From Alphaproteobacteria bacterium MedPE-SWcel (GTDB lineage Bacteria; Pseudomonadota; Alphaproteobacteria; Rhodobacterales; Rhodobacteraceae): a DNA stretch of 64,000 nt. Where the stretch lies: contig MPDC01000001.1 in the NCBI GenBank assembly GCA_001874255.1, positions 186,001-250,000 on the forward strand, in the 5' to 3' direction. Below, piece after piece: positions 2,989-45,000 of the stretch. The translations under genes were made by a program, and so were the position numbers. How positions within the stretch are numbered: position 1 is the stretch's first letter; the number at the start of each line of letters is the position of its first letter. The notes below the pieces were generated by a model. It was not told the DNA's origin, ran no database searches, and worked only from the letters and a program-made list of their open reading frames with translations.

Positions 2989-3021
2989 CGCCTTCGGCCC
3001 GCCTTCGGCCCGCCTTCGGCC
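2989..3021 (+). repeat. Three tandem copies of an 11-bp unit
   Basis: The unit CGCCTTCGGCC is repeated three times without mismatch between two minus-strand genes, just upstream of the SDR start. It is one of several short-period arrays at gene borders in this window, and the only one seen here with an 11-bp period. Confidence 0.85.
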
Positions 3022-3079
3022 TGTCCGGCCGCATTGCATCGATGCCCACACAGGTCGGGCGGGCCGCAGGGCGGGGTGT

Positions 3080-3337
3080 TCAGTCGGAGAGGATCGGCAG
3101 GCGAGCGACGGTGCCTGCGCGTTCGACCAGCAGGCCTTCGGCATCGATGCCGACGATGCGGCCGATGGTCAGGCGTTCGCCCGGCTTTACGGTCTTGATC
3201 CGTCCGGAAGAGAGACGGACCAGCCCCTGCAGCGCATCCTGCGGCCCGAACAGGCCGATCAGGGCAAGGCCGCGATCGGGCAGGGCGTTTGCCTCTGTGG
3301 CGAGCGCTTCGGCGGTGGCGGTTTGGGAATTGGTCAT
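3080..3337 (-). CDS. Small protein with PilP/GspC-like segment
   Basis: An 85-residue protein that is not firmly recognised. From about residue 23 it reads LALIGLFGPQDALQGLVRLS, followed by a GxxxxVxxGxRL-type turn (IKTVKPGERLTIGRIVGID). That pattern resembles the small beta domain of GspC/PilP-like proteins and of C-terminal segments in larger roseobacter hypothetical proteins. No signal peptide or membrane segment is seen. The frame is open upstream to 3508, but the Met at 3337 starts the part with ordinary composition. The function is unknown. Confidence 0.6.
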   Translation of the reverse strand: MTNSQTATAEALATEANALPDRGLALIGLFGPQDALQGLVRLSSGRIKTVKPGERLTIGRIVGIDAEGLLVERAGTVARLPILSD

Positions 3338-3514
3338 TCGCAGTCCGGACTTGGCACCGCCGATCCGGTTGCCGGAGGAGGTGAGAACATATGGGGAGGC
3401 AGCTTGCTGGCGGGCTGCTATCAGGATGGGCGCACGGGGCCAAGAGCGGGGTCGGGCCCGATAGCGGAGATCTGCCGACCTCGATGCCGGAGATGTCGGG
3501 GCAGGCACTCTGCG

Positions 3515-4057
3515 TCAGGAATCATAGACCAGGGAGGCGAGGTCGTGTCCATAGGCGTGCAGGAACCCCAACAGATCGTCGAGGTCGACGCCCAGTTCCT
3601 GCATGCGGGCGAGGTCGTGGTTGACCTCGGACACCTGGAGCTCCGGGTATTCGCCTTCGGGCCGCATATGCAGCATGCAGGCCAAGGGGCCGCCGCTTTC
3701 GGGGGGGATTTGGTTGGAGAGCCAGGCGGGGCGGCTGCCCATGCTTTCGATCTCGCGCATCTCGAAGAGGTCGAGATAGTCGTCGAAGACATCCTCGCTG
3801 ACGCCGGCCCAGGTGCCCAGAATGAACTCTTCGCCACCGGTATCGGCCAGCGGAATCGCGAGGACCGCACGCAGGAAGCGCAAGGATCCGAACCGGCAGA
3901 AATCTTCGGTCAGAACATCTCCGTCGGTGGCGAACACGGCGGTATTGTCCTGCACCGGCATATCCGCCGGGCAGATGTCTGGCCGATCACAGGACAGACT
4001 GAGAAGCTGGGCAAAGGTCGCACCGCAACAGCGGCATTGACGCGAAGAGCTCAGCAT
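3515..4057 (-). CDS. DUF2199 family protein
   Basis: A 180-residue protein matching the DUF2199 pattern. An N-terminal Cys pair (CRCCGATF) is followed by a second cysteine cluster region, FRFGSLRFLRAVLAIPLADT-like strands and the FILGTWAGVSEDVFDDY segment typical of the family. The N-terminal cysteines suggest metal binding, which is an inference. The open frame extends to a TTG at 4078. The ATG at 4055-4057 was preferred. It is followed downstream by the small PilP-like gene on the same strand. No function is known. Confidence 0.75.
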   Translation of the reverse strand: MLSSSRQCRCCGATFAQLLSLSCDRPDICPADMPVQDNTAVFATDGDVLTEDFCRFGSLRFLRAVLAIPLADTGGEEFILGTWAGVSEDVFDDYLDLFEMREIESMGSRPAWLSNQIPPESGGPLACMLHMRPEGEYPELQVSEVNHDLARMQELGVDLDDLLGFLHAYGHDLASLVYDS

Positions 4058-4111
4058 GCGGGCAAGATGCGCGTCCAAGAGGGCGCCCCTTTCGAAAGTG
4101 AAATAGAGAAA

Positions 4112-4136
4112 GGCGCTGACCGGTTGGGTCAGCGCC
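4112..4136 (-). terminator. Probable rho-independent terminator after purF
   Basis: A perfect 10-bp stem GGCGCTGACC / GGTCAGCGCC with a 5-nt loop. Read on the minus strand it is followed by TTTCTCTATTTC. It lies about 160 bp past the purF stop and before the DUF2199 start. Confidence 0.6.
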
Positions 4137-4295
4137 GATTGGTATGCGTCCGCGCTCCCTTACGCCGGTTGGTCAAAAAGTGCAATCACCGGGACAGGGG
4201 GCGGCGAAACACCGGCGGGGCGACGCGCGGGGCAGACGGGCAGGGGGGCCATTTTCTGCCGTGCCTGGTTCCCGTCGGCCGCCGCTTTGTGGGCG

Positions 4296-5816
4296 TCAAG
4301 AGGCCAGAGTTGCGCCATTCCAGGACGTGCCTGTCTCCGGCATGTCATTGATTTTCTTGCTGACGCGACTGCTGCTTTCGAGCGAGTTCAGGTAATCTGC
4401 GCTGACGCTGCCGGTGATGTATTTGCCGTCAAAACAGGAGCAGTCGAAATTCTCGATCTCGGAGTTGCCTTCTTTTGCCGCCCAGACCAGATCCTCGAGG
4501 TTTTGATAAAACAGCGCGTCCGCGCCGAGTTCCTGGCGAATCTCTTCGAGGCTCAGCCCATTGGCAATCAATTCATGCTTGGTGGGCATGTCGATGCCGT
4601 AGACATTGGGGTATTTCACCGGCGGCGAGGCGGAGGCGATATAGACCTTTTTGGCACCGGCCTCGCGACACATCTGGACGATCTTCTTGATGGTATTGCC
4701 GCGCACGATGCTGTCGTCGATCAGCAGGATATTGCGGTCCTTCATCTCCAGCGGGATGGCGTTCAGCTTGCGGCGCACGGATTTCTGCCGTTCCTGCTGA
4801 CCGGGCATGATGAACGTGCGGCCGACATAGCGGTTTTTCACCAGTGCCTCGCGGTAGCGGATGCCGGTGGCATTGGCGACTTCGAGCGCCACGGGGCGGG
4901 CGCTGTCGGGCACCGGGATGACCGAGTCGATTTCCAGACCCGAGGCGGCTATCTGCTTGGCCAGAGCTTCGCCCATCCGCAGCTGGGTCTTGTAGACCGA
5001 AATGCCGTCCAGCATGGAATCGGGCCGCGCCAGATAGACATACTCGAAGATACAGGGCGTCAGCTTGCCCTCGACGGCCTGAAACTCATGCATATTGCCC
5101 TCAAGATCGACCAGGATCGCCTCGCCGGGTTTGAGGTCGCGCAGCTTTTCAAACCCGTTGATGCCAAAGGCCACGTCCTCGGAGGCAAAGGCGTAATCGA
5201 ACGCACCGTCTTCGGCGTCGCGCCGGGCCACTGACAGCGGGCGGATGCCATGCGGATCGCGGAAGGCCAGCATGCCGATGCCTGCGATCAGGCAGATCAC
5301 AGAATAGGCCCCCTGCACCCGCTCCATGGTCATTTTCACGCCAGCCTGAATATTGCGGATCGGATCGGCGTTGCCGTTGACCTTGATCGCATCGGCGACC
5401 TTGTCCGCCAGCACGTTCAGCAGGATTTCCGAATCCGAAGTGGTGCGCAGGTGGCGGCTGTATTTGCCGGTGACCTTCTCGCGCTGCTGCTCGGTATTGG
5501 TGATGTTGCCGTTGTGGACGAGATAGATCCCGTAGGGCGCATTGACGAAGAACGGCTGGGCCTCGGCGGCGGAGAGGGACCCTGCGGTGGGGTAGCGCAC
5601 ATGCCCCATGCCGATCGACCCCGTCAGCGTGTCGGCATCCTTGGCGTTGAAGACGTCCTTGACCAGACCGTTGGCCTTGCGTTCGCGAAAGAATCCGTCG
5701 CTATAGGTGACGATGCCGGATGCATCCTGGCCGCGATGCTGTAGCATCAAGAGGCCGTCATAGAGTTCCGCAAATACGTGTTCGGTTCTGCTTGCGATGC
5801 CCAAGATGCCGCACAT
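4296..5816 (-). CDS. purF: Amidophosphoribosyltransferase
   Basis: A 506-residue glutamine-PRPP amidotransferase, the first committed step of purine synthesis. The start is set by MCGILGIAS, where Cys2 is the N-terminal nucleophile of the glutaminase domain after Met removal, so no propeptide is present. The glutaminase half runs to about residue 230. The PRTase half has the PRPP-binding motif ILLIDDSIVRGNT near residue 360. The frame stays open 71 codons upstream of the ATG, through a 15-bp tandem repeat, which would add a Pro-rich PPADL repeat if translated. That extension is rejected because it would bury the catalytic Cys. Confidence 0.96.
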   Translation of the reverse strand: MCGILGIASRTEHVFAELYDGLLMLQHRGQDASGIVTYSDGFFRERKANGLVKDVFNAKDADTLTGSIGMGHVRYPTAGSLSAAEAQPFFVNAPYGIYLVHNGNITNTEQQREKVTGKYSRHLRTTSDSEILLNVLADKVADAIKVNGNADPIRNIQAGVKMTMERVQGAYSVICLIAGIGMLAFRDPHGIRPLSVARRDAEDGAFDYAFASEDVAFGINGFEKLRDLKPGEAILVDLEGNMHEFQAVEGKLTPCIFEYVYLARPDSMLDGISVYKTQLRMGEALAKQIAASGLEIDSVIPVPDSARPVALEVANATGIRYREALVKNRYVGRTFIMPGQQERQKSVRRKLNAIPLEMKDRNILLIDDSIVRGNTIKKIVQMCREAGAKKVYIASASPPVKYPNVYGIDMPTKHELIANGLSLEEIRQELGADALFYQNLEDLVWAAKEGNSEIENFDCSCFDGKYITGSVSADYLNSLESSSRVSKKINDMPETGTSWNGATLAS

Positions 5817-5918
5817 GGCGTGGCTCCAATATTTCAGTCGGGTTGGCGGGCAACCCGGAGGTTGCTGCGAAAGAGGCGAGGCCGCCGCGTTCGGCACAGG
5901 CAGCCGAGCTGCGGGACC

Positions 5919-5963
5919 GAGGTCAGCGGGCGGGAGGTCCGCGGGCGGGAGGTCCGCGGGCGG
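5919..5963 (+). repeat. 15-bp tandem array upstream of purF (3 copies)
   Basis: Three copies of GAGGTCCGCGGGCGG (first copy GAGGTCAGCGGGCGG) lie about 100-150 bp upstream of the purF ATG. On the minus strand the array is open in the purF frame and would encode PPADL repeats. Confidence 0.85.
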
Positions 5964-6389
5964 GGAAGATGTCCGATAGGGCCCAAGACAGAGGCTCTGG
6001 ATCTGTGGATCTGATGGTGGGCGCCACATGGGACTGGCAAGTCCACGGCAGCTGTGGAGACGCTATGACATGCCGCAAGGGCATTTCGTGCAACCAGAGT
6101 CTGGTTGGGCAGGTCGTCGGCGTGGTGCTGGGTCAACACAGGGGCGTCGGCTCCGAATCCGGTCGAACATGGACGGCCCTCACATAGGCGCTCTGGCGCT
6201 GATTGTCATCAAAGGATCACAATACAGACGACGATATGCAGCGGATTTTAGGAAGGGAGCAGGTGACGCCGTCAAAAGGGGCGCAATTTGCCGTCACATC
6301 CCGGAAACGGGCAGCGGCGCAGTCGGCAGGCTGGGGGTCGGTGGATTGATGGCCAGCCGGATAAATTGATGGCCAGCCGGATAAGCAGA

Positions 6390-6449
6390 GGCCAGTGGAT
6401 CAGAGTTCAGTGGATCAGGGGCCAGTGGATCAGGGGCCGGTGGATCAGG
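6390..6449 (+). repeat. 15-bp tandem array overlapping a stop codon (4 copies)
   Basis: Four units of GGCCAGTGGATCAGG with a few mismatches at exact 15-bp spacing. The last unit contains the TGA stop (6445-6447, minus strand) of the Hint-like gene, so the array starts at the gene's end and runs downstream. Two 20-bp-spaced copies of TTGATGGCCAGCCGGATA lie immediately beyond it, at 6346-6383. Confidence 0.9.
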
Positions 6450-7155
6450 CGGCGTAGCGCCCGAAGAGTAGGTCAAGGGGATCAAAAGCCGGGGCCGTGG
6501 TCGCGGTCAGATCCAGAAACGCCTCATCGGCCTCATCTTCGTCCAATTCGGCAAGGCGCATTGCGGTGGCGCGGCCCGCTTCGACGATCAGACGCGCCTC
6601 GGTGAGGGACAGGATGTCGTAGAACCCGTTCGGATTGGTTTCGCCCGCGTTGATCAGCAGGCCGCCTTCTGCCCAGAGCAGTTCTTCTTCTTCGCAATCG
6701 ATGTGAAGACGGGCCAGTCGCTGCGGCAGGGCGGTGGAGATCCCGTTGTGACCCACGATGGCAATCAGCTTGACCGACACCACCGGCAGATCGAACAGAT
6801 CAAGCGCCAGATCGCCTTCCAAGGCCACGATCGTGTCAGAGGGCAGGTCGAGCGCAGAGTCGTTGCCCAGGGCACCGGCCGGGATATGGACCATGGCGGT
6901 CAGGCGCGGAACCGAGTGGCGGATATTGAGAACTTCACGCAGCCCGCCATCGAAGGTCTGCACCATATCGCCGGGACGCAGGTTGCGGGCCTGGGTGAAC
7001 CCGGTCGATGTTTCGATCAGGGTGCCTGGAAGAACACCGCCGTGCTGTGGACGGGCGCGCGTTTCACCGGCGTCTTCTGCCTCATTTGAACGCAGCTCCA
7101 AAAGCAGGTCTACCGGCTGATAATCTGTAAACGCAGTGGTGTGATCCAGCAGCAT
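6445..7155 (-). CDS. Hint-domain (Hedgehog/intein-like) protein
   Basis: A 236-residue protein with a Hint_2-type module. GGVLPGTLIETSTGF near residue 40 is followed by ARNLRPGDMVQTFDGG, and later by LPVVSVKLIAIVGHNGI and LLINAGETNPNGFYD. Many roseobacter proteins carry this module. The nucleophilic Cys expected before xPGTLI is replaced by Val/Gly here, so autoprocessing looks unlikely, which is an inference. The ATG at 7153-7155 was chosen over an upstream extension because of AGAAGGGA upstream and because MLLDHTTAF begins normal coding sequence. The C-terminus is acidic (DEDEADEAF). It sits between purF and cvpA. Confidence 0.75.
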   Translation of the reverse strand: MLLDHTTAFTDYQPVDLLLELRSNEAEDAGETRARPQHGGVLPGTLIETSTGFTQARNLRPGDMVQTFDGGLREVLNIRHSVPRLTAMVHIPAGALGNDSALDLPSDTIVALEGDLALDLFDLPVVSVKLIAIVGHNGISTALPQRLARLHIDCEEEELLWAEGGLLINAGETNPNGFYDILSLTEARLIVEAGRATAMRLAELDEDEADEAFLDLTATTAPAFDPLDLLFGRYAA

Positions 7156-7533: not shown

Positions 7534-7557
7534 GCGAACGCGTCCCGGGGGCCTTTG

Positions 7558-18859: not shown

Positions 18860-21295
18860 TCAGCTTTCCATATCCAGCGCGAGCGACCAGGCAACGCGCT
18901 CTGTTGCGCTCAGTTTGATCTGCAGCGCTTGCGAATAAAGGGACTCGAACTCCGGTATCTGCTGCAATTCCCGCGCCTTGGCACGGTGCCAGCGCAGACC
19001 GTTGTCCTGCAGGCGCCGCAGGACCGGATCCCCAAGCAGACGGGCCATTTCGGCCTCAAGCCGTGGGAGGTTGCGCTGGATCGTGACATCCTTGTGGTCG
19101 TTCCAGTCCATCCGGATCCAGTAGTTGAGCCCGATGGAGCGATCCACATGCAACGCCCGTCCGCGCTGCCGTTTGACCAGAAAACTCTCGGCGGAGCGCA
19201 GGGCGTAGTGATTGAGCTGCAGCAGGTCATAGCCGAACGACTTCCTGGAATTGCGCCAGCCATTGTCCACGGCCTCGGAGGTCATGTCCCGACCCGATCC
19301 ATTGACCCATTTCACCCGGCCCCGTCTGTCTTCCTCGAGCTTGTTCGGCCGGTGACAGGAGATCTTTTTGTAGGCGCCGATGTTTTTGAACATGGTCTTG
19401 AAGCCCCAGACCGTATGCGGTTTGGGGCAGAATTGCGGGGCGCAGTGGTCAAATTGGGCGATCACCGGCTGATCTGATAGCGCAGAGACGCCGTTGTGTC
19501 CGAACAGCCGCCACGTCATGGCGACATTCGTGGCGTCCGGGGCATGGGAAAAGAAATCGTCCAGAGTCCCGTTGCCGCAGCGCACGTTGATGAATTCATC
19601 AACGTCGATGTGGATCACCCAGTCGGCGTTTCGGATCACCGGTTCCCGGAGCGACTGGTTCAGCGCGTATTGCTGAGGGGAGTTGCCCTTCCAGTTGTCA
19701 TTGTTACGGTGTTGCAGCAAGCCAAGATCCTGCAGCCGGTCGAGAATTTCCGCCGTCCCGTCCGTGCAGCCATTGGTGTAGATCAGGAAACTGTCGACGC
19801 CGATCATGCGATGATAGGCGACCCATTCCAGAATATAGGGCGCCTCGTTTTTCATGCAGCCCACGATCACATTGCCACTCTGACCCTCGGGAAGGCTCCG
19901 GGGCAGGACCTCCGTATAGGGGGGCGCCTGCGTTTTTTCGTCAACGGTGCCGACCCTGTTGTGCGGCTTGAGCGAAGAGGTTTGCAGCTGCGCGAAATTT
20001 TCAATGGCACGGGGCGGCATCATGTCGCGGGCGAGCTCGGACAGGGGGGCCTCGGACAGGGTGGTCTCAGGTCGGGCGGTTTCCGACAAGCGGGTTTCTG
20101 CCCCTGCGCCATGATGCCTGCGCTGATGCGCCGCGCCAGAGTGACGCTGCGCCTGCAGGTCGACCTCGCGCGCGGCGCGCTCCTCCTGAGTTGCCTTCTC
20201 GATCCGGTGCAGGAAGGCCGTCAGGTATTGCGAGGCGCGAAACCCCATCTGCGGATCCGCTTCGCGCCAGGCACCCGGCGTCGCCTCAAGATCGAAAAGC
20301 GCGGGCGACAGGGCCGGATGGCGCTCACAGAGCCGCGCATTGTCCTCGGCAAAGAAACTGGTGATCTCACCCAGATCGGCCGGATCGATGGCGGCCCCGT
20401 CCACCTGCAGGTCCTGGATCATCTGTCGCCACAGTTTGCGCGGCAGGATATGATCGCCCCGCGCCAGCAGTTTCAGCAGCAGCGTGTTGAACTGCCGTCC
20501 CCGCGTCAGCCAGGCCGCAGAGGCAGGAAAAGAAGCAGGCGCAGGGTGGCTGATCGGGGTGGCCTTGCCGATCGGGACTGCCAGGTCAAAGGCCGCTTCG
20601 ATCTCATCCGTCACATCGGCGCTCGCAAAGAGCGGGGCGTCATAGGCCCGGTAGCTGAAACATTCGGTTCCAAAGACCTCTTCCCAAAATTGCTGCAACC
20701 CATTGAAATCCAGCCAGAACGGCGCGCCTTGGCTGTCCTCGAACTGGCCCGCGCGCGGATCGATCTTCGGGAATGTATCCAATGCCGCCTGCCACCAGCT
20801 GTCCTGCCGGGTCAGATCGAGATCCCGGGCGAGATCCGCCGTTCGCCCCTCCAAAATCTGTTCCGCAAAGATCTCCGGCAGGAGCCGTGCCTGCGCGTCC
20901 ACATGGGCGATAATACGGATGTCGCTGGACAGGGGCAGCAGCAGGGCCTGCAGCCGCTGCAGCTCGCTCCGCCGGGATATCCGGGTACCGAGTTGATGCG
21001 CGGAGAGGATCAGGCTGTGAGGCCGATGTGCCGCAATGTCCCGGTTCAGATCCGCCATCAGCCTGTCACGCAGCTGAGCCTGTTTCTCGGCGGTGATATA
21101 GCCGCGGTTGTAGCGAAGCGTGTCGATGTGGTCGGGGTCGGTCACCGCCATGAACAACCGGGTATGGTTCTGCGCCCCGGCGGCCCGTGGCACCAGAACA
21201 CCGTTCGCCAACAGCTGGTCCCGCTTGGCGCGCAGGACCGATTGCAGGCGGTCCGCGCCCACATGCTGCAGGCCAATGTGAAGGTAAATACGCAT
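18860..21295 (-). CDS. Two-domain protein: degenerate sulfotransferase-like domain fused to family 2 glycosyltransferase
   Basis: An 811-residue fusion. Residues 1-230 resemble a sulfotransferase: MRIYLHIGLQHVGADRLQ mirrors the PAPS-loop pattern HIGxxKTGTTxLQ but lacks the Lys, the Gly-Thr-Thr and thus the likely 5'-phosphosulfate loop. Residues 390-440 are a charged, His/Arg/Glu-rich linker that includes a 15-bp in-frame repeat. From about residue 505 there is a GT2 domain: NVIVGCMKNEAPYILEWVAY, YTNGCTDGT, and the DxD in HIDVDEFINVRCG. The ATG overlaps the stop of the sulfotransferase gene by 1 bp. The frame is open upstream in an alternative Arg/Pro repeat, which was rejected as a start because it lies inside that neighbour. 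Confidence 0.8.
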   Translation of the reverse strand: MRIYLHIGLQHVGADRLQSVLRAKRDQLLANGVLVPRAAGAQNHTRLFMAVTDPDHIDTLRYNRGYITAEKQAQLRDRLMADLNRDIAAHRPHSLILSAHQLGTRISRRSELQRLQALLLPLSSDIRIIAHVDAQARLLPEIFAEQILEGRTADLARDLDLTRQDSWWQAALDTFPKIDPRAGQFEDSQGAPFWLDFNGLQQFWEEVFGTECFSYRAYDAPLFASADVTDEIEAAFDLAVPIGKATPISHPAPASFPASAAWLTRGRQFNTLLLKLLARGDHILPRKLWRQMIQDLQVDGAAIDPADLGEITSFFAEDNARLCERHPALSPALFDLEATPGAWREADPQMGFRASQYLTAFLHRIEKATQEERAAREVDLQAQRHSGAAHQRRHHGAGAETRLSETARPETTLSEAPLSELARDMMPPRAIENFAQLQTSSLKPHNRVGTVDEKTQAPPYTEVLPRSLPEGQSGNVIVGCMKNEAPYILEWVAYHRMIGVDSFLIYTNGCTDGTAEILDRLQDLGLLQHRNNDNWKGNSPQQYALNQSLREPVIRNADWVIHIDVDEFINVRCGNGTLDDFFSHAPDATNVAMTWRLFGHNGVSALSDQPVIAQFDHCAPQFCPKPHTVWGFKTMFKNIGAYKKISCHRPNKLEEDRRGRVKWVNGSGRDMTSEAVDNGWRNSRKSFGYDLLQLNHYALRSAESFLVKRQRGRALHVDRSIGLNYWIRMDWNDHKDVTIQRNLPRLEAEMARLLGDPVLRRLQDNGLRWHRAKARELQQIPEFESLYSQALQIKLSATERVAWSLALDMES
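20033..20107 (+). repeat. 15-bp tandem array inside the fusion gene (5 copies)
   Basis: Five imperfect units around GGTCTCGGACAGGGT at exact 15-bp spacing, in the linker between the sulfotransferase-like and glycosyltransferase domains. In the coding frame it gives pentapeptide repeats such as SETxx / SEAPL. Confidence 0.85.
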
Positions 21296-21999
21296 CAGAG
21301 CGGCTCTTCCGGATCGGCTGGCTGGACTTTCGGGTCTCGGTCTTTCGGCTCGCGGTCTTGCGGCTCTCGGTCTATCGGCTCTCGGTCTATCGGGTTGATG
21401 TTGGCCTGCCCCCACCAGGGCATGTCCCGCCCGAGGAATTGCGCCAGCTGACCGGCGGCGTCGGGCGCGGCCACGTCCAGCTCCAGATAGAGCGGGTCGT
21501 CGCGAAACCAATGGGCCAGCGCCTCATAGTGACCGTCGATCCAGATCATCTGTTCGTCGATCTCATGGCCATAGCCGGGGGGCAGCCCGGGCACCGTCGA
21601 GCGCGGGATACGCTGCGTACCAAGGTTGCTCCAGCGCATGATCGAATGTGCCAGCGCTTCGGTATTGCGCCGGGTCGCGATGAACCGCAGCTTGGGATGC
21701 AATTTGCGCAGCGCCAGCAGCATGGCATGATCGCATTGCGGCCAGATCGAATGGCCGCCGTAGATAGAGCTGATTTCCGACAGCGCCTGAACCCCTTCGA
21801 ACAGCGCGGCCGGGTCGCCGTATTTATAAAGCCCTTCATACATCAGGGCCCCGACGAATACGCGATCGGCCGGGTTGGTCTTGTCCTCCATCGCCTTCAC
21901 ACGGTGGTCGGCCACGGAGTAGCCTGCTTCGGTCAGTGCCCGCTTCAGCGTTGTGGTGCCGGATTTGGGCAGGCCCAGATTGATGACTTCAAGGCTCAT
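21295..21999 (-). CDS. Sulfotransferase family protein
   Basis: A 234-residue protein with an intact PAPS-binding 5' loop at the N-terminus, MSLEVINLGLPKSGTTTLKR, where Lys-Ser-Gly-Thr-Thr is the catalytic/phosphate-binding signature. A second segment FIATRRNTEALAHSIMRW corresponds to the 3'-phosphate-binding region with Arg and Ser. The C-terminal 25 residues are a charged repeat (REPID, REPQD, REPKD) encoded by a 15-bp tandem array. The start overlaps the stop of the upstream glycosyltransferase by 4 bp. Its probable job is to sulfate a glycan built by the operon's transferases, inferred from context. Confidence 0.85.
   Translation of the reverse strand: MSLEVINLGLPKSGTTTLKRALTEAGYSVADHRVKAMEDKTNPADRVFVGALMYEGLYKYGDPAALFEGVQALSEISSIYGGHSIWPQCDHAMLLALRKLHPKLRFIATRRNTEALAHSIMRWSNLGTQRIPRSTVPGLPPGYGHEIDEQMIWIDGHYEALAHWFRDDPLYLELDVAAPDAAGQLAQFLGRDMPWWGQANINPIDREPIDREPQDREPKDRDPKVQPADPEEPL
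21325..21399 (+). repeat. 15-bp tandem array at the 3' end of the sulfotransferase gene (5 copies)
   Basis: Five units around GTCTATCGGCTCTCG at exact 15-bp spacing, 30 bp before the stop codon. On the minus strand they encode the pentapeptides RDREP/IDREP. The period keeps the frame, so copy-number change would only lengthen or shorten the tail. Confidence 0.9.
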
Positions 22000-24262: not shown

Positions 24263-24307
24263 GGTGACCGTCGGCCCTGTGGTGACAGTCGGCCGTGTGG
24301 TGACATA
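24263..24307 (+). repeat. 18-bp tandem array upstream of the VWA gene
   Basis: Two and a third copies of GGTGACCGTCGGCCCTGT (second copy with A and G changes) ending at the start codon of the VWA gene. It is open in that gene's frame and has no stop between it and the ATG. Confidence 0.8.
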
Positions 24308-28465: not shown

Positions 28466-30844
28466 ATGCCTAAGGATATTGACGCCAAGGAGAGCGGCAT
28501 CGGTGCTGCAAGCAAACGGCGCGAAGACATCAGGTTCCTGAGCGGGACCGGAAATTACACCGACGACATCAATCTGAATGGCCAGGCCTATGTGCATTTC
28601 CTGCGCTCGGATGTAGCGCATGGCCGGATCACCAGCATCGAGACCGCCGAGGCCGCCGCCATGCCGGGGGTGCTGCGGATCTTTACGGGCGCGGATTTCG
28701 AAGGCGTCGGCAGCATCCCCTGCGGCTGGCAGGTGACCGACCGTTTCGGCGAGGTGATGCAGGAGCCGGCGCATCCGGTGCTGGCGCAGGGCAAGGTCCG
28801 TCACGTCGGGGACCCGATTGCCGCCGTGGTCGCAGAGACAGCGGAGGCGGCCCGCGACGCGGCCGAAGCGATTGAACTCGACATCGAAGAGCTGCCTGCC
28901 GTCGTCGACATGAAAGCCGCGCTGGCGGAGGGCGCGCCGAAGGTGCATGACGACCTGACGTCGAACCTCTGTTATGACTGGGGGTTTGTCGAAGACAACA
29001 AGGCGGCGGTCAACGCGGCCTTTGAAGCGGCAGCGCATGTCACCTCGCTGGAGCTGGTCAACAACCGTCTGGTCGCCAATCCGATGGAACCGCGCGTTGC
29101 GGTCGGCGATTTCAATCGCGCCACAGGGGATTCGACGCTCTATACCACCAGCCAGAACCCGCATGTGATCCGTCTCTTGATGGGGGCCTTTGTCCTGGGC
29201 ATTCCTGAACACAAGCTGCGGGTGGTGGCGCCGGATGTCGGCGGTGGTTTCGGGTCAAAGATCTTTCACTACGCGGAAGAGGCGTTTTGCACCTTTGCCG
29301 CCAAGGCGTTGAACCGCGCGGTCAAATGGACATCGTCCCGGTCCGAGGCCTTCATGAGCGACGCCCATGGCCGCGATCATGTCACCAAGATTGAGCTGGC
29401 GCTGGATGCGGACAACAACTTTACCGCGCTGCGGACCGATACGCTTGCCAATATGGGGGCCTATCTGTCCACCTTTGCGCCCTCCGTGCCGACCTGGCTT
29501 CATGGCACGCTGATGGCCGGCAATTACAAGACGCCGCTGATCTATGTGAATGTGAAAGCCGTGTTCACAAATACAGTGCCGGTGGATGCCTACCGCGGCG
29601 CGGGACGGCCCGAGGCAACGTTCCAGCTGGAACGGGTCATTGACAAGGCGGCGCTGGAATTGGGAGTCGACCCAATCGCGTTGCGCCGCCAGAACTTCAT
29701 CACCGAATTTCCCTACGCCACGCCTGTGGCGGTGGAATATGACACCGGTGACTATGTCGCGACAATGGACAAGCTGGAAGAGATCGCCGACATTGCCGGA
29801 TTTGCCGCGCGCCGCGCCGAGAGTGAGCGCGCGGGGAAATTGAGAGGGCTTGGGGTCAACTGCTATATCGAGGCCTGCGGGATTGCGCCCTCAAACCTGG
29901 TCGGTCAGCTGGGGGCACGTGCAGGGCTTTATGAAAGCGCCACGGTACGGGTGAATGCCACCGGCGGGATCGTGGTGATGACCGGATCTCACAGTCACGG
30001 GCAGGGGCATGAGACGTCCTTTCCGCAGGTGATCGCCTCCATGATCGGTATCGACGAAAACATGGTGGAGATCGAGCATGGCGATACCAACAATGCGCCG
30101 ATGGGGATGGGGACCTACGGGTCTCGTTCGCTGGCGGTTGGGGGCTCTGCCATGGTGCGGGCCACCGAGAAGATCATTGCCAAGGCCAAGAAAATCGCTG
30201 CCCATCTGATGGAGGCCGCAGATGCGGATATCGAGCTCAAGGACGGTCAGTTTTCCGTTGCAGGGACGGATAAATCGGTGGCCTGGGGAGATGTGACCCT
30301 GGCCGCCTATGTGCCACACAACTACCCGCTGGAGGAGATCGAACCCGGTCTGGAGGAAACGGCTTTCTATGATCCGTCGAACTTCACCTATCCGTCAGGG
30401 GCCTATGCCTGCGAGGTTGAGGTGGATCCCGAAACCGGAAAAGTCAGCATTGCGCGCTTTGCTGCGGCGGATGATTTCGGCAATATCGTCAATCCGATGA
30501 TCGTTGATGGACAGGTGCACGGCGGTATTGGACAGGGCATCGGGCAAGCGCTTCTTGAAGGCTGCGTTTATGATGAAAACGGCCAGCTGCTATCAGCCTC
30601 CTTCATGGATTATGCGATGCCCCGGGCGGATGATGTGCCGTTCTACGAGGTTGACCATTCCTGTCAGACCCCCTGTACCCACAATCCGTTGGGGGTGAAG
30701 GGATGCGGCGAGGCCGGGGCAATCGGTTCACCGCCTGCGGTGGTCAATGCGGTGGTCAATGCGCTGCGGTCGGCGGGCAAGGATGTGACCCATATCGATA
30801 TGCCTCTGTCGCCCGCGCGCGTCTGGGCAGCAATGCAGGGCTGA
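28466..30844 (+). CDS. coxL: Molybdenum hydroxylase large subunit, form II CoxL
   Basis: A 792-residue molybdopterin subunit of the xanthine oxidase family. The active-site loop reads AYRGAGR at residues 375-381, the form II signature, rather than the AYXCSFR of form I CO dehydrogenase. GGGFGSK lies near residue 257. The catalytic Glu is E749 in [12 protein letters not shown]. Form II enzymes have uncertain substrates, so CO oxidation is not established here. The ATG follows GGGAGGAGATT. It is in the order coxS-coxL-coxM (S-L-M rather than M-S-L), common for form II. Confidence 0.93.
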
Positions 30845-34139: not shown

Positions 34140-34209
34140 TGAATTCCAACCGGCCTATGCCGCCGCCAGACGGTCTTGCAAACACCGACCTGTACAAGGG
34201 GGCAAAGGA

Positions 34210-34280
34210 CATCCGGGAAGGGACATTCTGACATGAAGATCCAGGCCGGGATATCCGGGCAGGGATATCCAGACCGGGTC
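34210..34280 (+). repeat. 14-bp tandem array downstream of fpr
   Basis: Three clear units (ATCCAGGCCGGGAT, ATCCGGGCAGGGAT, ATCCAGACCGGGTC) at 14-bp spacing, with a weaker related unit ACATCCGGGAAGGG at 34210. It lies between the fpr stop (34303) and its terminator. Confidence 0.75.
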
Positions 34281-34302: not shown

Positions 34303-35199
34303 TTAGTCGAGAAAGGCCTTCTCCACCACAAAATGCGCCGGTTTGGAATTGGCACCTTCTTCCAGACCATATGTGTTTTCAAACAGGTCTTTCAGCTCAA
34401 GGTTGAACGCCAGATTGCCACAGATCATGGCGCGATCGCTTTCCGGATTGAGCGGCGGCACACCGAGGTCCTCGAAGGCCTCGCCAGAGCGCATCAAATC
34501 GGTGATCCGCCCCATCTTGGCGCTCTCTTCACGGGTGGTGGTCGGGTAGTATTTGATCTTCTTCCAGAACCCGTCGCCAATCAGCTCGTTGAGCAACTCG
34601 TCGGTTTTCAGGCTTTCGATCAGCTCCTGACCGTATTGCAGCTCGCCCGCCTCGCGGCAGGTATGGGTGATGATGACCTCGTCATAGTCCTCATAGGTCT
34701 GAGGTTCGCGCAGCAGCGAGGCGAAGGGCGCAAAGCCGGTGCCGGTGGCAAAGAACCAGATCCGTTTGCCGGGGATCAGCGCGTCATGCACCAGGGTCCC
34801 GACGGGTTTCGGACGCAGAATGATCTCGTCACCGACCTTGATGTGCTGCAGCTTCGAGGTCAGCGGGCCGTCCTGGACCTTGATCGAGTAGAATTCCATT
34901 TCCTCGTCCCAGCTGGGCGAGGCGATGGAATAGGCGCGCAGCAGCGGCTTGACCTTGCCGGTCTTGGGGTCGGGATCGTTCATCAACCCGATCATCACGA
35001 ACTCGCCCGAGCGGAAGCGCAGGCTGGCCGGACGGCTGACGCGGAAGGAAAACAGCCGGTCGGTCCAGTGTTTTACCTCTGTGACGGTCTGGGCGTCGGG
35101 CAGGGTCGGGGTCGCCTTTGGAGCAGGGGTCGTCTCTGCGGTCGGGGTCGCTTCGGGAGCGGGGGTGGCAGCATCTGTCACGGGTGCAATCTCGTTCAT
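34303..35199 (-). CDS. fpr: Ferredoxin-NADP+ reductase
   Basis: A 298-residue flavoprotein that moves electrons between NADPH and ferredoxin or flavodoxin. The FAD-binding RAYSIASPSWDEE is near residue 92, the NADP-binding GTGFAPFASLLR near 152, and the C-terminal HFVVEKAFLD ends in the typical short tail. The first 35 residues are a low-complexity Ala/Pro/Thr stretch encoded by an 18-bp repeat and absent from typical family members of about 260 residues. Its place at the end of the sulfite-reduction block suggests it supplies electrons to the CysI-like reductase. Confidence 0.93.
   Translation of the reverse strand: MNEIAPVTDAATPAPEATPTAETTPAPKATPTLPDAQTVTEVKHWTDRLFSFRVSRPASLRFRSGEFVMIGLMNDPDPKTGKVKPLLRAYSIASPSWDEEMEFYSIKVQDGPLTSKLQHIKVGDEIILRPKPVGTLVHDALIPGKRIWFFATGTGFAPFASLLREPQTYEDYDEVIITHTCREAGELQYGQELIESLKTDELLNELIGDGFWKKIKYYPTTTREESAKMGRITDLMRSGEAFEDLGVPPLNPESDRAMICGNLAFNLELKDLFENTYGLEEGANSKPAHFVVEKAFLD
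35108..35179 (+). repeat. 18-bp tandem array within the 5' end of fpr (4 copies)
   Basis: Four imperfect units beginning GGGGTCG at 18-bp spacing (for example GGGGTCGCCTTTGGAGCA). In the fpr frame they encode hexapeptides of the APEATP/AETTPAPKATP type at residues 10-33. Confidence 0.7.
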
Positions 35200-39917: not shown

Positions 39918-39951
39918 AGAGCGGGAGACTGACGGCGGCAGGCTCCGGGAG

Positions 39952-40021
39952 CTGATCGTGGCAGGATAATCAAGGCAGGCTGATCGTGGCGGGCTGATCG
40001 TGGCAGATTGATCGTGGCGGG
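39952..40021 (+). repeat. 14-bp tandem array between the Lrp and P450 genes (5 copies)
   Basis: Five units (CTGATCGTGGCAGG, ATAATCAAGGCAGG, CTGATCGTGGCGGG, CTGATCGTGGCAGA, TTGATCGTGGCGGG) at exact 14-bp spacing, filling the gap between two converging genes. Confidence 0.92.
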
Positions 40022-40072
40022 CAGGGCAAGGTCCTCCCCCGCCAAGGCCTGCCGGAAGTGGAAACCCGCCCG

Positions 40073-41257: not shown

Positions 41258-41318
41258 GGGACCAGCTTTTTGCCGAGGTGGCAGGTCTTGGCAAGGGGGG
41301 CTTTGCGACGGAGGCGCA

Positions 41319-41904
41319 ATGATAGAAACACGCCACCCCCGACTTGCCCTCGTTTTGGGCGTTGCGCTTGCCATCGTGGTGTTGTCCGTTGCCGTCTGGT
41401 CGTTGGCCCGCTGCCAGGCCCTGACCGCATTGGCAGAGCGCAGCGCGTCCGATCTGGCGCTGGCCCCGTGACCGGGACGGCACAGAATTGCAGGTCTACC
41501 GCGAACAGGCGGTGCTGACGGTCGACCACCCCGCCTTGCTGACGCTGGACAATCCGGCCGACCGGCGGATGGCCGCCGCTCTGCTGCGCAAGGCGGCCGA
41601 CAAAACCGGGGCGATGGATGTCGCTCCGGCGCGGCGCCTTGCCATGGTCCAGACGCTGGCAATGGCGTCTGTCTGTCCGGCCTTTGGCACCATCCTGTTT
41701 CTGGCCGCCAAACGGCGCCGCACGCTTTTCCAGGCCAATGCTGCAATGGAAGTACGGGGTGCGACGCGAACCCGGGACCTGCCGGAGGTGCTGCTGACCG
41801 GCGAGGGCGACATTCCGATGGCGGTGAAGGCGATCTCCCAAGGGGCCTTTGATTTCCTTGAAAAACCTTGTGCCAGTGGCTTGCTTTCCACGAGAGGTAT
41901 TTAA
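41319..41904 (+). pseudogene. dctB/dctD remnant (sensor kinase joined to response regulator)
   Basis: The first part (41319-41471) encodes a DctB-like N-terminal membrane segment (RLALVLGVALAIVVLSVAVW) and stops at a TGA. The frame then shifts, and 41474-41904 continues with DctB sensor-domain and linker pieces ([17 protein letters not shown], then [20 protein letters not shown]). It jumps, without any kinase domain, straight into a DctD receiver segment, [27 protein letters not shown]. Sensor, kinase and most of the regulator are therefore deleted. It sits upstream of the dctP remnant, the normal place for the C4-dicarboxylate two-component genes. Confidence 0.8.
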
Positions 41905-42049
41905 GTGATTGATAATATAAGATAATTTGGCTTCCGCGCGGTTTTGGAACCGCAGCTTGAGCGGATCGCTTCCTTTCCCAATTCTAGCGCCCAAGCCCGA
42001 GGCATTGCTTCGGCGTGGAGGAAAATTACAGATTTCCGGGAGGATCACC

Positions 42050-42813
42050 ATGAAGTTCCTGACTGCTGCCGCCGCTGAGCCGCCGCTGTGCTGGCGCTGA
42101 CCGTGACGGCTGGCACCGCTTCGGCCGATGCTTGCGATGAAGGTGAAATCGTTGTCAAATTCAGCCACGTCACCAATACCGACAAACACCTCAAAGGTAT
42201 CGATGCATCGCTGCTGGAACAGCGGATAAATGACGAGGTGAACGACACCATGTGCATGGTCGTCTATCCGAATTCCACCTTGTACGATCACAATAAGGTG
42301 CTCGAAGCCGTGCTGCAGGGCGATGTCCAGCTGGCCGCGCCGTCCCTGTCCAAGTTTGAGAAATTCACCAAACAATTCCGTCTTTTCGACCTGCCGTTCA
42401 TGTTCAAGAACATCAACGCCGTGGAGGCGTTTCAGGCGTCGGGCGACGGTCAGGCGATGCGCAACAGAATGCAGCGCCGTGGCCTGCAGGGGCTTGGATA
42501 CTGGCACGACGGCATGAAGCAGATGTCCGCCAACAAACCCCTGGTTCAACGCTCGGATGCTTCCGGTCTGAAGTTCCGGGAGCAGTTCATGACCATCATG
42601 CATGAGGTCACCAATACCCGGACCTTCGAAACCTCCAAGGTGAACACTGCAGCCAAAGAGGCGATCATCGCCGCAGGCGGCACCGTACGCCAGCTGACCT
42701 CGGAGCAGCGTCAGGCCGAGGTCGATGCGATGAAACCGGTTTGGGAGCAGTTCTCCGATAACGTGGGTCAGGACATGATCGACGCGGCTAAGGCTATCAA
42801 CGCAGGCCTGTGA
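42050..42813 (+). pseudogene. dctP remnant (TRAP solute-binding protein, frameshifted and internally deleted)
   Basis: An intact RBS (GGGAGGATCACC) and ATG open MKFLTAAAA, but a base missing in the signal peptide (GCTGAGCCG where GCTGCAGCC would be expected) puts a stop 17 codons in. The rest, readable in another frame from 42088, is clearly DctP: CDEGEIVVKFSHVTNTDKHL and RLFDLPFMFKNINAVEAFQA. About 90 residues of the ligand-binding core are missing between SGLKFR and EQFMTIMHEV. The usual length is about 330 residues. It is not expected to work as a binding protein. Confidence 0.82.
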
Positions 42814-42851
42814 TCTGACACGATGATCTGAATGCGGTGATCTGAACACTG
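42810..42851 (+). repeat. 14-bp tandem array at the dctP stop codon (3 copies)
   Basis: Units TGATCTGACACGA, TGATCTGAATGCGG and TGATCTGAACACTG follow one another, the first containing the dctP stop TGA (42811-42813). A degenerate fourth (TAATCGGGG) follows. Confidence 0.85.
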
Positions 42852-42940
42852 TAATCGGGGCGCGCATCATGTGCGCTCCGATACATCGGCGCCCCGTCCC
42901 GGGGTCACCACTTTCGGTCCTGAAAAACTGGGGAGATACA

Positions 42941-43405
42941 ATGTCGGGGGCCAAAGCCAACCCGCCGGGGTTTATCCGTAGGTTGGAAGAGACGCTGATC
43001 GTGTTCCTTCTGGGTGGTATGACGCTTTTGAAATTTGCCAATGTCATTGCGCGCTACGTCTTCAATTCCAATATTTTGTGGGCGCTGGAGTTGACGGTCT
43101 ACCTGTTCGCCTGGCTCGTGCTGCTGGGCGCCGCCTATGCCCTAGCCACGGCGTTCTTTCATGCCTACACGCACCGGACCCTGTCCGAGGCGGGAAAGCT
43201 GACGGTGACCCTGTTGTTCGGGGTCGCCAATGCCTTGATTATAAATCATGTTCTGATGGATGAACAGGTGCCGCTGCATATTGTCAATGCGATGCTCTCA
43301 GCGGGTTTTGATCCTGTGATGTTCCTGATCCTGATCACCTATATTCCCTGGTTGTCGACGGTTTTGCCAATCGTGATCATGGGGCCGGAGATCATGACAA
43401 GCTGA
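42941..43405 (+). pseudogene. dctQ-dctM deletion fusion (TRAP membrane subunits)
   Basis: An open frame of 154 residues that starts as DctQ (GFIRRLEETLIVFLLGGMTL, NIARYVFNSNILWALELTVY-like block) for about 66 residues. It then continues as DctM pieces: LSEAGKLTVTLLFGVANALI, EQVPLHIVNAMLSAGFDPVM, and directly LITYIPWLSTVLPIVIMGPE, which is the DctM C-terminus. The rest of DctQ and most of DctM are gone. The frame survived the deletions, so a short membrane protein could still be made, but transport is very unlikely. Confidence 0.8.
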
Positions 43406-43431
43406 TCTCGTGTTCAGAAGACTGGATAGAA

Positions 43432-43461
43432 AAACGCCCGTGGACCAGGGCCCCGGGCGTT
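43432..43461 (-). terminator. Rho-independent terminator of tpiA
   Basis: Stem AACGCCCG / CGGGCGTT with a GC-rich loop, followed on the minus strand by TTTTTCTATCC. It lies 105 bp past the tpiA stop. Confidence 0.8.
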
Positions 43462-43565
43462 CATTCCTTGTGTGACAGGCGGCGCTCGCGTGCGGCCAGT
43501 CCCCGTCGATTAGCGCACCCAGACCAGCGAGGGTCAGACCTGCGAGGGCCGCCGGAACCGGGGCC

Positions 43566-44324
43566 TCAGGCGATGGTGGCGTCCGTTGTCGCGGCGAGGG
43601 CTGCAACAATGGGGCGGAAATCGGCGGCTTTCAGGCTCGCGCCCCCGACCAGCGCTCCGTCCACATTGGGCACGGCAAAGATATCCGCCGCATTGCCCGC
43701 CTTTACGGAGCCGCCGTAGAGCAGCGGGATGTCTTGGCCTGCAGCCCCGAAGCGGGCGATCAGAGCCGCGCGCAGGGCGCTGTGGACTTCGGCAATTTGC
43801 TCGAGTGTTGGCACTTTGCCGGTCCCGATTGCCCAGACCGGCTCATAGGCGACCACTGTATCGCTGCCGGAGGCGGTGTCGGGCAGAGAGCCTGCGAGCT
43901 GCGATTCCACCACCTGCAGCGTTTGACCGGCCTCGCGCTGGTCCAGAGTTTCTCCAATGCAGACAACGGCTTGCAGGCCTGCGCCGGCAGCGGCCTCGGC
44001 CTTGGCCCGCACCACTGCGTCGCTCTCGCCATGGTCGGCGCGGCGTTCGGAATGGCCCAGGATGACATGCGTCGCGCCTGCATCCTTCAGCATCAGGGCG
44101 CTGACATCGCCGGTGTGGGCACCAGACACCGCCGCGTGACAATCCTGACCGCCGATGGCGATATCCTTGGCGATCGCTGCTGCGCGCGACAGCAGCGGGG
44201 CGGGCGGGCAAATCAGCACCTCGACACCTTGTGGAACGCCGTCTGATACCAGCGCCTCCAGTTCCCCGAGGCTTGCGCCGGTGCCATTCATTTTCCAGTT
44301 GCCTGCGGCCAGTTTACGAGCCAT
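43566..44324 (-). CDS. tpiA: Triose-phosphate isomerase
   Basis: A 252-residue glycolytic enzyme. The catalytic Lys is in AAGNWKMNG at the N-terminus, His in ILGHSERR near residue 92, and the catalytic Glu in [13 protein letters not shown] near 162, with loop 6 following. The [13 protein letters not shown] phosphate loop is present. The ATG at 44322-44324 starts [11 protein letters not shown]. It stands alone between the dct remnants and sufA. Confidence 0.96.
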
Positions 44325-44462
44325 TCTGCCCCCCTTGATATGCCATGCCTTGCTATCGGTGGTAGCATCGAGGCGGCGAGGGAGCAATCGCGCCAGACTT
44401 TCGGGCATAAAAAAGGGCGACGCCGGGCCACGCTTCGATGTTCCGACCCCTCAAGATGGTCG

Positions 44463-44819
44463 CTAGGTGTCGCCAACCTTGAAGCTGATGGATTCGCCGC
44501 ATCCGCAGGCTTCGGCAACATTCGGGTTGTTGAACTTGAAGCTCGCCTCAAGCAGGGAGACCTCATAGTCGATCTCGGTGCCAAACAGGAACATTTGCGC
44601 CATCGGCGCGATCAGCACCCGGGCGCCGTCCTGTTCCACCACCTCATCATTGGGGTCTGCCTCATCGACGTAGTCCATCGTGTATTCCATTCCGGCGCAG
44701 CCCCCTTTCTTGATGCCGATGCGCAGGCCTGCATGGCCCGCACGGTCCATCAGTTTCGAAATCTGGGTCGCTGCGCGCGGCGTCATCGTGACGGCTTGTT
44801 TTCCGGGGATGGCAAACAT
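44463..44819 (-). CDS. sufA: Iron-sulfur cluster assembly A-type protein
   Basis: A 118-residue HesB/IscA/SufA-family carrier. The three conserved cysteines are in KKGGCAGMEY near residue 43 and EACGCGESISF near 108. MTPRAATQISKLM begins the domain. The ATG at 44817-44819 gives the normal length. The frame is open for another 59 codons through a 15-bp repeat up to the preceding gene. That N-terminal extension is considered untranslated or rare. It is downstream of the sufT-like gene, with which it fits a SUF end-of-operon pair. Confidence 0.92.
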   Translation of the reverse strand: MFAIPGKQAVTMTPRAATQISKLMDRAGHAGLRIGIKKGGCAGMEYTMDYVDEADPNDEVVEQDGARVLIAPMAQMFLFGTEIDYEVSLLEASFKFNNPNVAEACGCGESISFKVGDT

Positions 44820-44880
44820 TGGAAGCTCCGTTTCGTTCTCATGAGGAACGTAGGGGTAGAGGTGAGCGCCCACAAGGGGG

Positions 44881-45000
44881 GAGGCGATCACAAGGGCGCC
44901 GGTGATTTGGACGCCGGTGATTGGGGCGGCGATCACTGTTGCGCTGATCACTGCTGCGCCAATCAAAGGTGCACCGATTACGGGTGCGCCGATCACTGGG
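44881..45000 (+). repeat. 15-bp tandem array between the sufT-like gene and sufA (8 copies)
   Basis: Eight imperfect units around GCGCCGATCACTGGG at exact 15-bp spacing, with no indels over 120 bp. On the minus strand it is free of stops, in frame with sufA, and encodes PVIGA-type pentapeptides. It begins 8 bp after the sufT-like stop codon. Confidence 0.95.

Follow-up and report, generated by a model that had tools for sequence, protein, structure and literature searches.

Excess of short adjacent duplications in two sister Rhodobacteraceae genomes, consistent with a lineage-specific duplication mutator

Short tandem arrays lie at gene borders and inside genes of the 64,000-nucleotide stretch of DNA analysed here (the window; contig MPDC01000001.1, positions 186,001 to 250,000, of Alphaproteobacteria bacterium MedPE-SWcel), and they raise the question of whether such arrays exceed chance and, if so, whether they stem from a replication- or repair-linked process peculiar to this lineage, as the original prediction proposed. 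Ten of the twelve arrays that it named are supported, while those at 20033 and 28406 are not. At a score of at least 50, TRF recovers nine of the twelve; those at 20033, 28406 and 42810 are absent from its list even at score 30, and the array at 42810 is backed by a homologous array at the same place (6632-6699, 14 bp x4.9) in L033, the sister-genome sequence aligned to the window. TRF also adds arrays that had not been named, among them one of 12 bp x2.3 at 30736-30763 and, at 6345-6384, a 20-bp duplication whose copies are identical. The claimed borders match the calls of our own gene caller, trained on the genome holding the window (G000) and applied also to that of the sister species (stops 6445, 42813 and 45009; start 24308), and the units run head to tail with no spacer-separated repeats, as expected if this is not CRISPR (Table 1).

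Table 1. Short tandem arrays and duplications in the window (dot, no strand assigned)
Feature	Position	Strand	Remarks
Array, 11 bp x3.0	2989..3021	.	Intergenic, between genes 2297-2944 and 3080-3337; TRF 66
Array, 15 bp x3.1	5919..5964	.	Upstream of called start, minus-strand gene 4296-5816; TRF 85
Exact 20-bp duplication	6345..6384	.	No microhomology; adjoins array 6386..6449
Array, 15 bp x4.3	6386..6449	.	Crosses stop (6445) of minus-strand Hint-domain gene; TRF 93
Array, 15/30 bp	21313..21393	.	Lies in a minus-strand gene called at 21295-21999, sulfotransferase-like; period divisible by 3; TRF 99 and 101 (15-bp row: 21327-21393, x4.5, score 99)
Array, 18 bp x2.4	24263..24305	.	Stops 2 bases short of start 24308; TRF 72
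12-bp duplication	30736..30763	+	Within molybdopterin dehydrogenase gene; found in sister genome too, hence not recent
Array, 14 bp x4.6	34207..34270	.	Convergent intergenic; no counterpart at L033 site; TRF 51
Array, 18 bp x2.7	35104..35151	-	Close to start of gene 34303-35199; missing in L033 (either gain in G000 or loss in L033); TRF 54
Array, 14 bp x5.1	39951..40022	.	Convergent intergenic; L033 ~2 units; TRF 88
Weak 14-bp array	42809..42864	+	Begins at stop (42813) of TRAP dctP gene; L033 has same kind of array, different but internally uniform unit; TRF <30
15-bp duplication, x1.9	43520..43548	.	Convergent intergenic; TRF 51
15-bp array	44885..45003	.	5.5 units over 44922-45003, ~8 by eye; L033 3.3 units; ends 6 bases from stop (45009) of minus-strand FeS-assembly gene; TRF 80

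The array at 5919..5964 sits within the longest open reading frame (to 6029) of the minus-strand gene 4296-5816.

Arrays were counted by TRF at period 10-20 and score of at least 50 with overlapping rows merged, thresholds that are biased toward longer arrays. Counted in this way, the window contains 11 arrays against 0, 0, 1, 0, 2, 2, 0, 0, 2 and 0 in ten sequences with shuffled codon order and shuffled intergenic bases, and a 601,594-bp sample of G000 contains 79 against 0-7 in ten shuffles of the same kind, both far above the control. With the period left unrestricted, the sample yields 106 arrays and a single dinucleotide shuffle of it 8; the group of sequences used beside this shuffle (L033-L063) contains the high-density L033.

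Across genomes, the counts draw on 681,594 of the 4,076,435 bases of G000 and on 6.6-260 kb of each other genome, including the sister species (G010, matching Phaeobacter sp. B1627) and the next branch (G015, 64,947 bp); in a mutS tree G000 and G010 are grouped at 100/100, with G015 next, also at 100/100. The supposition that the process is peculiar to the lineage is supported by these counts, since among the genomes sampled the excess is found in G000 and G010 only and is not seen in G015 or 16 other relatives. Arrays of period 10-20 reach 12.6 per 100 kb in G000 and 15.0 in G010, whereas the 16 remaining genomes sampled over at least 34 kb range from 0 to 4.0, G015 having one array in its 64,947 bp. 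Exact adjacent duplications of 13-20 bp number 38 in 941,594 bp of G000 and G010 and 1 in 1,448,745 bp of 17 relatives (ratio 58, p 1e-14), and those of 11-20 bp 58 and 6 (ratio 14.9, p 1e-17), both p values assuming that duplications are independent; in G015 no exact duplication of 11-20 bp was found in 64,947 bp, and seven congeners with a G+C of at least 0.59 have 1 exact duplication in 500,762 bp. When one mismatch is allowed, duplications of at least 12 bp occur at 11.6 (G000) and 14.6 (G010) versus 3.7 per 100 kb in the others, and several congeners have up to 6-8.8 per 100 kb at 12-20 bp. Because the contrast for these one-mismatch copies is only 3-4-fold our confidence is held down, and a lineage-specific duplication mutator, of whatever kind, is considered probable in G000 and G010. 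By parsimony the trait was gained by their common ancestor, two independent gains being possible.

A preferred step of 14-15 bp, as first described, is not what the lengths indicate: they occupy a window of 9-20 bp with a mode of 12-15. Per 100 kb of G000, G010 and the others respectively, exact copies of 7 bp stand at 5.6, 5.4 and 5.5 and those of 8 bp at 1.5, 1.5 and 1.7, in the first two genomes at or under the Markov level, while copies of 9 bp stand at 3.5, 5.0 and 2.2 and those of 13-20 bp at 3.7, 5.0 and 0.07. Copies of 21-30 bp are nearly absent (2, 0 and 1 in total), making the upper limit sharp; the lower one is poorly defined, since copies of 7-8 bp also appear by chance. At period 1-9, TRF finds 5 arrays in G000 and 2 in G010 versus 4 in the others (0.7, 0.8 and 0.3 per 100 kb). 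Of the 181 gaps measuring 6-80 bp in pairwise BLAST alignment, 12 are duplication-like, with no clear peak, and this flat spectrum perhaps reflects alignments that break at arrays.

These sizes bear directly on the simplest alternative, namely that replication slippage at an ordinary rate was retained under relaxed selection in the lineage. Arrays are mostly intergenic and in frame within genes, as drift with purifying selection predicts, a called coding fraction of 84% leaves room for them, and arrays of period 1-9 as well as homopolymers of 8 or more (3.1 and 3.5 versus 2.1 per 100 kb) are somewhat raised. Relaxed selection should, however, lift every size, whereas period 10-20 arrays are up 8-9-fold (12.6 and 15.0 versus 1.6), exact 7-8 bp copies are not raised, and shorter and longer periods are up 1.5-4-fold at most, on small counts; furthermore, array density is 0-3.3 per 100 kb in eight relatives whose called coding fraction lies at 0.83-0.88. 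We regard this explanation as unlikely.

Repeated local births, as originally predicted, are supported by comparison with the sister genome. The aligned segments include 23 arrays of G000 and 14 of G010/L033, and at five borders TRF finds an array in both sisters; at four of these five the unit or the period differs, which argues against any conserved repeat with a regulatory role, be it REP, iteron or direct-repeat regulon. Copy number also differs between the sisters (39951, 5.1 versus ~2 units; 44922, 5.5 versus 3.3). Thirteen of 51 exact pairs have no degraded flanking copies and were taken as births, one of them being common to the sister; flanking microhomology at these is 0-4 bp, with a mean of 1.31 versus 0.70 by chance, a soft figure given the few births, and is zero in five. 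Exact copies in coding sequences are multiples of 3 in nine of nine cases (22 of 49 outside them), in line with the in-frame placement described earlier, and this frame keeping suggests that the copies have been screened by selection in living cells rather than introduced by assembly. Placement at gene borders, by contrast, stands only in part, being mostly intergenic tolerance (57 arrays per 100 kb of intergenic DNA versus 4.8 in coding sequence, the border arrays being equally divided) plus a modest preference for 3' ends: 15 of 65 arrays lie no more than 10 bp from a 3' end (random 8.2, sd 2.6) and the nearest gene end is a 3' one in 36 of 60 (random 27.8, sd 4.0). Intergenic autocorrelation was very noisy, the caller giving zero genes in G006 and G013 in that run, and showed multiples of 3, so that part of the DNA called intergenic probably codes for protein.

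The 3' bias might be expected of functional cis elements (binding sites, terminators, RNA features) selected as arrays at gene ends, and unit composition offers this possibility some further material. The intergenic units share a CCAG/CAGG/CCAGT motif family, CCAGT being found in 16 of 102 (2.5 expected) and CAG/CTG in 80 of 102 (50.3 expected), and CTGA is on the sense strand in 13 of 55 co-directional units and antisense in 1. Across loci, units otherwise differ and have only this loose CAG/CTG-type motif in common. The GATC core emphasised at the outset is indeed above expectation in intergenic units (18 of 102 versus 8.1) but weak when compared with flanking segments (15% versus 10% in G000, 8% versus 9% in G010), and was overstated. 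Against cis elements are the differing units or periods at four of the five shared borders, the lack of G/C skew when units are oriented by their genes (mean sense skew 0.007, n=55) and units less foldable than shuffled ones, and the CTGA bias may represent copied stop codons only; we hold selected elements to be very improbable. Three more specific ideas were dropped: DnaG starts at CTG, as the CTG/CAG motif has no leading/lagging bias (52:59), a strand-skewed RNA element, for which no skew was found, and hairpin-stabilised loops, since units fold less (-0.73) than shuffled units (-1.09) and intergenic DNA (-1.30). For the CAG/CTG enrichment, flaps (see below) give no explanation.

Variable target duplications of 9-20 bp occur with some mobile elements, and scars of mobile elements or integrases, left when a staggered cut is filled in and the insert is lost, would resemble the births, which are clean two-copy duplications, five of 13 with zero microhomology. 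Their lengths vary continuously, however, and no boundary motif is evident by eye among the 13; of the two gene families looked at here, reverse transcriptase is present in G000 but missing from G010, and the absence of Ku from all 18 genomes of the genus makes a nick followed by end joining unlikely. Such scars seem to us a poor candidate.

Defects in mismatch repair or single-strand exonucleases raise repeat instability in bacteria, and a defect of this known kind was therefore weighed also. MutS and RecJ were found in 18 of 18 genomes and MutL and XseA in 17, the one without a match (G014) being 67% complete, so that both MutS and MutL are present in G000 and G010; PF02739 and RNase HI are each found in 17 of 18. 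TRF arrays of period 1-4 number 0 in G000, 0 in G010 and 1 in the others, and mono- to tetranucleotide tracts are not expanded in either sister, homopolymers of 8 or more rising only as given above. For PolA, Ku, MutS, RecJ, reverse transcriptase, Y-family polymerases, RNase HI, MutL and the 5' nuclease, no presence pattern separates G000 and G010 from the rest. Residues were compared for PolA only, whose 5' nuclease, 3' exonuclease and polymerase domains are all present in G000: among 12 proteins (G000, G010, six congeners and four other alphas, several with an incomplete N-terminus) and beyond the first ~80 residues, no fixed-site change is shared by G000 and G010, exclusive changes being 1 and 2 respectively. 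We consider a known repair defect quite unlikely. Exonuclease VII was a lead for a time, the xseA open frames being 974 aa in G000 and 915 aa in G010 versus 498-552 in 14 of 15 other matched genomes (660 in G004), and was dropped because the long frames are an open frame extending upstream, by eye antisense to a purD-like neighbour, with the XseA match spanning the whole family model in both.

The proposed mutator would then have worked as follows. The ancestor of G000 and G010 would have acquired a state yielding adjacent duplications of ~9-20 bp; at each birth one stretch would be copied once, with 0-4 bases of flanking microhomology, and the new pair would grow and become uniform through in-register slippage and then drift, while selection would purge genic duplications unless frame is kept, leaving survivors to accumulate between genes and slightly more at 3' ends. 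The likeliest origin may be of flap type: where a nick or an Okazaki junction leaves 10-20 nt of a strand end displaced, this end would be re-joined rather than trimmed. Mismatch repair would miss loops over about 8 nt, and the lower size limit would follow from this, the upper one from the length of the flap. We lean slightly toward this account as a whole (ancestral gain, births, slippage, selection and flap-type origin), and infer that the process is still ongoing; the flap route itself is put forward tentatively. Absence of leading/lagging bias and of G/C skew argues against a pure lagging-strand model, which might predict both. The link to replication or repair fits the pattern, with no gene difference found among the ten families checked. 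A more doubtful variant is that the clade, rather than simply losing a known repair gene, gained an undescribed DNA-processing activity copying 9-20 nt adjacently and preferring CAG/CTG-type (CCAG, CAGG, CCAGT) stretches.

Several known systems share features with this one. Bacterial minisatellites (VNTR) are tandem arrays, mostly intergenic, with copy number varying between relatives, and the arrays described here have the same head-to-tail units, mostly intergenic location and copy-number differences between close relatives; they differ in being far denser than in the sampled relatives, with few arrays shared by the sisters and differing units at the same borders. Nick-induced fill-in in plants likewise gives short tandem duplications with little homology and requires end joining, of which the component searched for, Ku, was found in 0 of 18 genomes of the genus. 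Yeast rad27/FEN1 flap-processing mutants are short-duplication mutators; such a mutator needs loss of or damage to the flap endonuclease, whose domain is, judging by sequence, present here, and its duplications are flanked by short direct repeats, compared with 0-4 bp (mean 1.31 versus 0.70) at our 13 births. These mutants and the flap-derived internal tandem duplications of PMC12633238 show, as here, adjacent short duplications with little flanking homology and no sequence-specific site seen; the present case differs in its natural bacterial lineage, its narrow 9-20 bp window and its predicted flap nuclease domain. Beggiatoaceae (PMC4679880) also have many intergenic direct repeats within a single bacterial lineage, built from one fixed 7-bp unit (TAACTGA), while here the unit differs per locus and measures 9-20 bp. 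Among the literature matches listed, none was seen to describe a short-duplication excess in this lineage.

In conclusion, the density of exact short duplications in the sister pair, 15-fold (at 11-20 bp) to 58-fold (at 13-20 bp) the level of sampled relatives, looks like that of a lineage which began stuttering in DNA copying or repair. Exact short tandem duplications are rare in the sampled relatives, making their origin hard to study, and here one branch divides duplicator from non-duplicator, a natural experiment in which the responsible gene could be mapped. The case shows how bacterial minisatellites and in-frame protein repeats may arise, and if a DNA-processing activity was indeed gained, it would be a bacterial generator of short duplications with a built-in ruler.

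With periods of 10–20 bp, 11 arrays were found by TRF in the window as against 0–2 in ten shuffled controls (codon order shuffled within genes, bases between genes), and 79 in a 601,594-bp sample of the source genome (G000, a 4.08 Mb assembly in 54 contigs) as against 0–7 in ten shuffles. The window corresponds to positions 186001–250000 of contig C1 in G000. Ten of the 12 individual arrays named in the original prediction stand, and nine of the 12 are listed by TRF with a score of at least 50. Among ten contig starts of G000 sampled (C1–C10), two carry an array in their opening 90 bases, and the ends of contigs C1 and C2 show none; longer arrays may be the cause of assembly breaks.

The named relatives of the window's P450 gene belong to Phaeobacter and Tritonibacter (Rhodobacteraceae), the closest being Phaeobacter sp. 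B1627, 92% identical at the protein level over the best segment. Since an 800-bp stretch of L033, the P450 locus of that strain, has a 100% match in genome G010, the latter was taken as Phaeobacter sp. B1627 or its species. In the mutS tree G000 and G010 are sisters (100/100) and G015 branches next (100/100). Arrays with periods of 10–20 bp reach 12.6 per 100 kb in G000 (86 in 681,594 bp) and 15.0 in G010 (39 in 260,000 bp), as against 1.5 in G015 (1 in 64,947 bp) and 0–4.0 in the other 15 genomes with at least 34 kb sampled; the G014 sample (6,573 bp) is too small for a density, and early values of 7.0 and 20.2 for G004 and G015, each resting on one array in 14 and 5 kb, dropped to 2.9 and 1.5 once further sequence was added. 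The 20-kb named loci L037 and L041 hold three and four such arrays, part of them in coding sequences. Judging by the 16-bp arrays with ACTGG-type units in L040 and L041, arrays of this kind may also originate, with low frequency, in other members of the family.

Exact adjacent duplications of 11–20 bp, counted independently of TRF, number 58 in 941,594 bp of G000 and G010 as against 6 in 1,448,745 bp of their relatives (ratio 14.9), and at 13–20 bp the counts are 38 and 1 (ratio 58). When one mismatch per 12 bp is allowed in duplications of at least 12 bp, the contrast is 3–4-fold (11.6 in G000 and 14.6 in G010 vs 3.7 per 100 kb), with single congeners ranging from 0 to 8.8 per 100 kb at 12–20 bp, mostly 12-mers. 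G+C content does not account for the excess: in seven congeners with G+C of at least 0.59, the 500,762 bp sampled contain a single exact copy. Exact copies of 11–20 bp number 2 in 606,609 bp of loci L034–L063 (which include congeners), 2 in 459,050 bp of other alphaproteobacteria and 7 in 367,184 bp of Actinobacteria, where the raw TRF density over all periods is equally high (18.5 per 100 kb), with main periods of 21 and 24.

The excess over relatives begins at 9 bp, peaks at 12–15 bp and ends near 20 bp. At 7 and 8 bp exact copies are equally frequent across all groups, at 6 bp they exceed the Markov level in every group (59, 54 and 50 vs 31, 26 and 23), and at 21–30 bp they number 2 in G000, 0 in G010 and 1 in the others. 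TRF periods of 21–30 are somewhat raised (2.8 in G000 and 5.4 in G010 vs 1.7 per 100 kb), partly, we infer, as multiples of short units; periods of 1–9, with 5, 2 and 4 arrays in G000, G010 and the others (0.7, 0.8 and 0.3 per 100 kb), have counts too low to judge.

Among 51 exact pairs with a run length below 1.9 units, 38 have degraded copies next to them and are read as growth, and 13 have none and are read as births, microhomology at the latter being 0–4 bp (mean 1.31 vs 0.70 by chance); one of the 13 is not recent, because it is also present in L033. CAG/CTG occurs in 80 of 102 intergenic units (50.3 expected), which are also rich in CCAG and CAGG, with CCAGT in 16 (2.5 expected). The CAG/CTG preference holds against the flanks in both genomes (74% vs 54% and 57%); its excess in 28 coding units is not significant (17 vs 14.2), and no replication-strand bias was found.

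Segments aligned between G000 and G010/L033 (86.7% identity, 165,655 columns) contain 23 comparable arrays from G000 and 14 from G010/L033, several other compared sites lying in segments too diverged for alignment. At five borders both sisters have a TRF array, with unit or period different at four and related at one. In the clean cases the length differences are whole units: an exact 15-bp copy in G010, free of microhomology, is single in G000; another copy of 15 bp, in L033, corresponds to a single-copy state with a 5–6 bp flanking repeat in G000; a G000 gene has two extra 12-bp units; and one window array is absent from L033.

Arrays and associated features by position
Sequence	Position	Feature	Observation
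Window	6345–6449	Stop of Hint-domain gene (PF13403)	Exact 20-bp pair adjoins 15 bp x 4.3 array
Window	20033	Named array	Without support
Window	28406	Named array	Without support
Window	30736	Birth shared with L033	Common to both sisters, below TRF threshold in one
Window	35104	Array	Absent from L033
Window	39951	Array	Common to both sisters, below TRF threshold in one
Window	42088–42813	TRAP dctP gene (241 aa)	About 250 bp present in L033, L034 and others apparently missing; resembles a deletion between short repeats
Window	42575–42586	Apparent gap in dctP	Flanking alignments overlap by about 10 bases; in the relatives some 240 additional bases separate them
Window	42809	Array	Common to both sisters, below TRF threshold in one; units differ between G000 and L033 and are alike within each, i.e. 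local homogenisation
Window	42810	Named array	Below TRF threshold; counterpart in L033 TRF-positive
Window	44885	Border array in both sisters	Related
G000 C3 (L025)	12–60	Array at contig start	
G000 C5 (L027)	46–86	Array at contig start	
G010 C1	139134–174564	35-kb stretch	Especially array-dense (17 intergenic arrays)
L040 (Phaeobacter italicus)	1859–1933	16-bp intergenic or border array	ACTGG-type units, matching the preferred motif of G000 and G010
L041 (a Phaeobacter MAG)	898–931	16-bp intergenic or border array	ACTGG-type units, as in L040

Of the arrays in the 601,594-bp sample, 47 fall between genes, 17 lie in coding sequences and 15 cross a border, giving, with border arrays split, 57 per 100 kb of intergenic vs 4.8 of coding sequence. 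The period is a multiple of 3 in 13 of the 17 coding arrays (remainders 0, 1 and 2 in 21, 12 and 14 intergenic ones), and exact copies inside called coding sequences keep the frame in nine of nine. The nearest gene end is 3' for 36 of 60 arrays (random 27.8, sd 4.0); 3' ends are at most 10 bp away in 15 of 65 cases (random 8.2, sd 2.6) and 5' ends in 5 of 55 (random 8.1, sd 2.6). We read this placement as tolerance combined with avoidance of upstream regions, not as targeting. The original prediction of lineage-specific, repeated births was right in kind, and its exact step, GATC core and strength of border bias were off.

In a family-level genome search of ten gene families (PolA, Ku, MutS, RecJ, reverse transcriptase, Y-family polymerases, RNase HI, XseA, MutL and 5' nuclease) no presence pattern separated G000 and G010 from the rest; residue-by-residue comparison covered PolA. 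The open frame of xseA in G000 C20 (L247) and G010 C1 (L248) runs far upstream, antisense to a purD-like neighbour, so that frame lengths taken automatically can mislead. A route by way of a flap or displaced strand might be the source of the copies; it fits their size, the low microhomology and the poor folding of the units, and no lesion for it was found in the families searched. Taken as a whole, the data are consistent with a mutator making adjacent copies of 9–20 bp.
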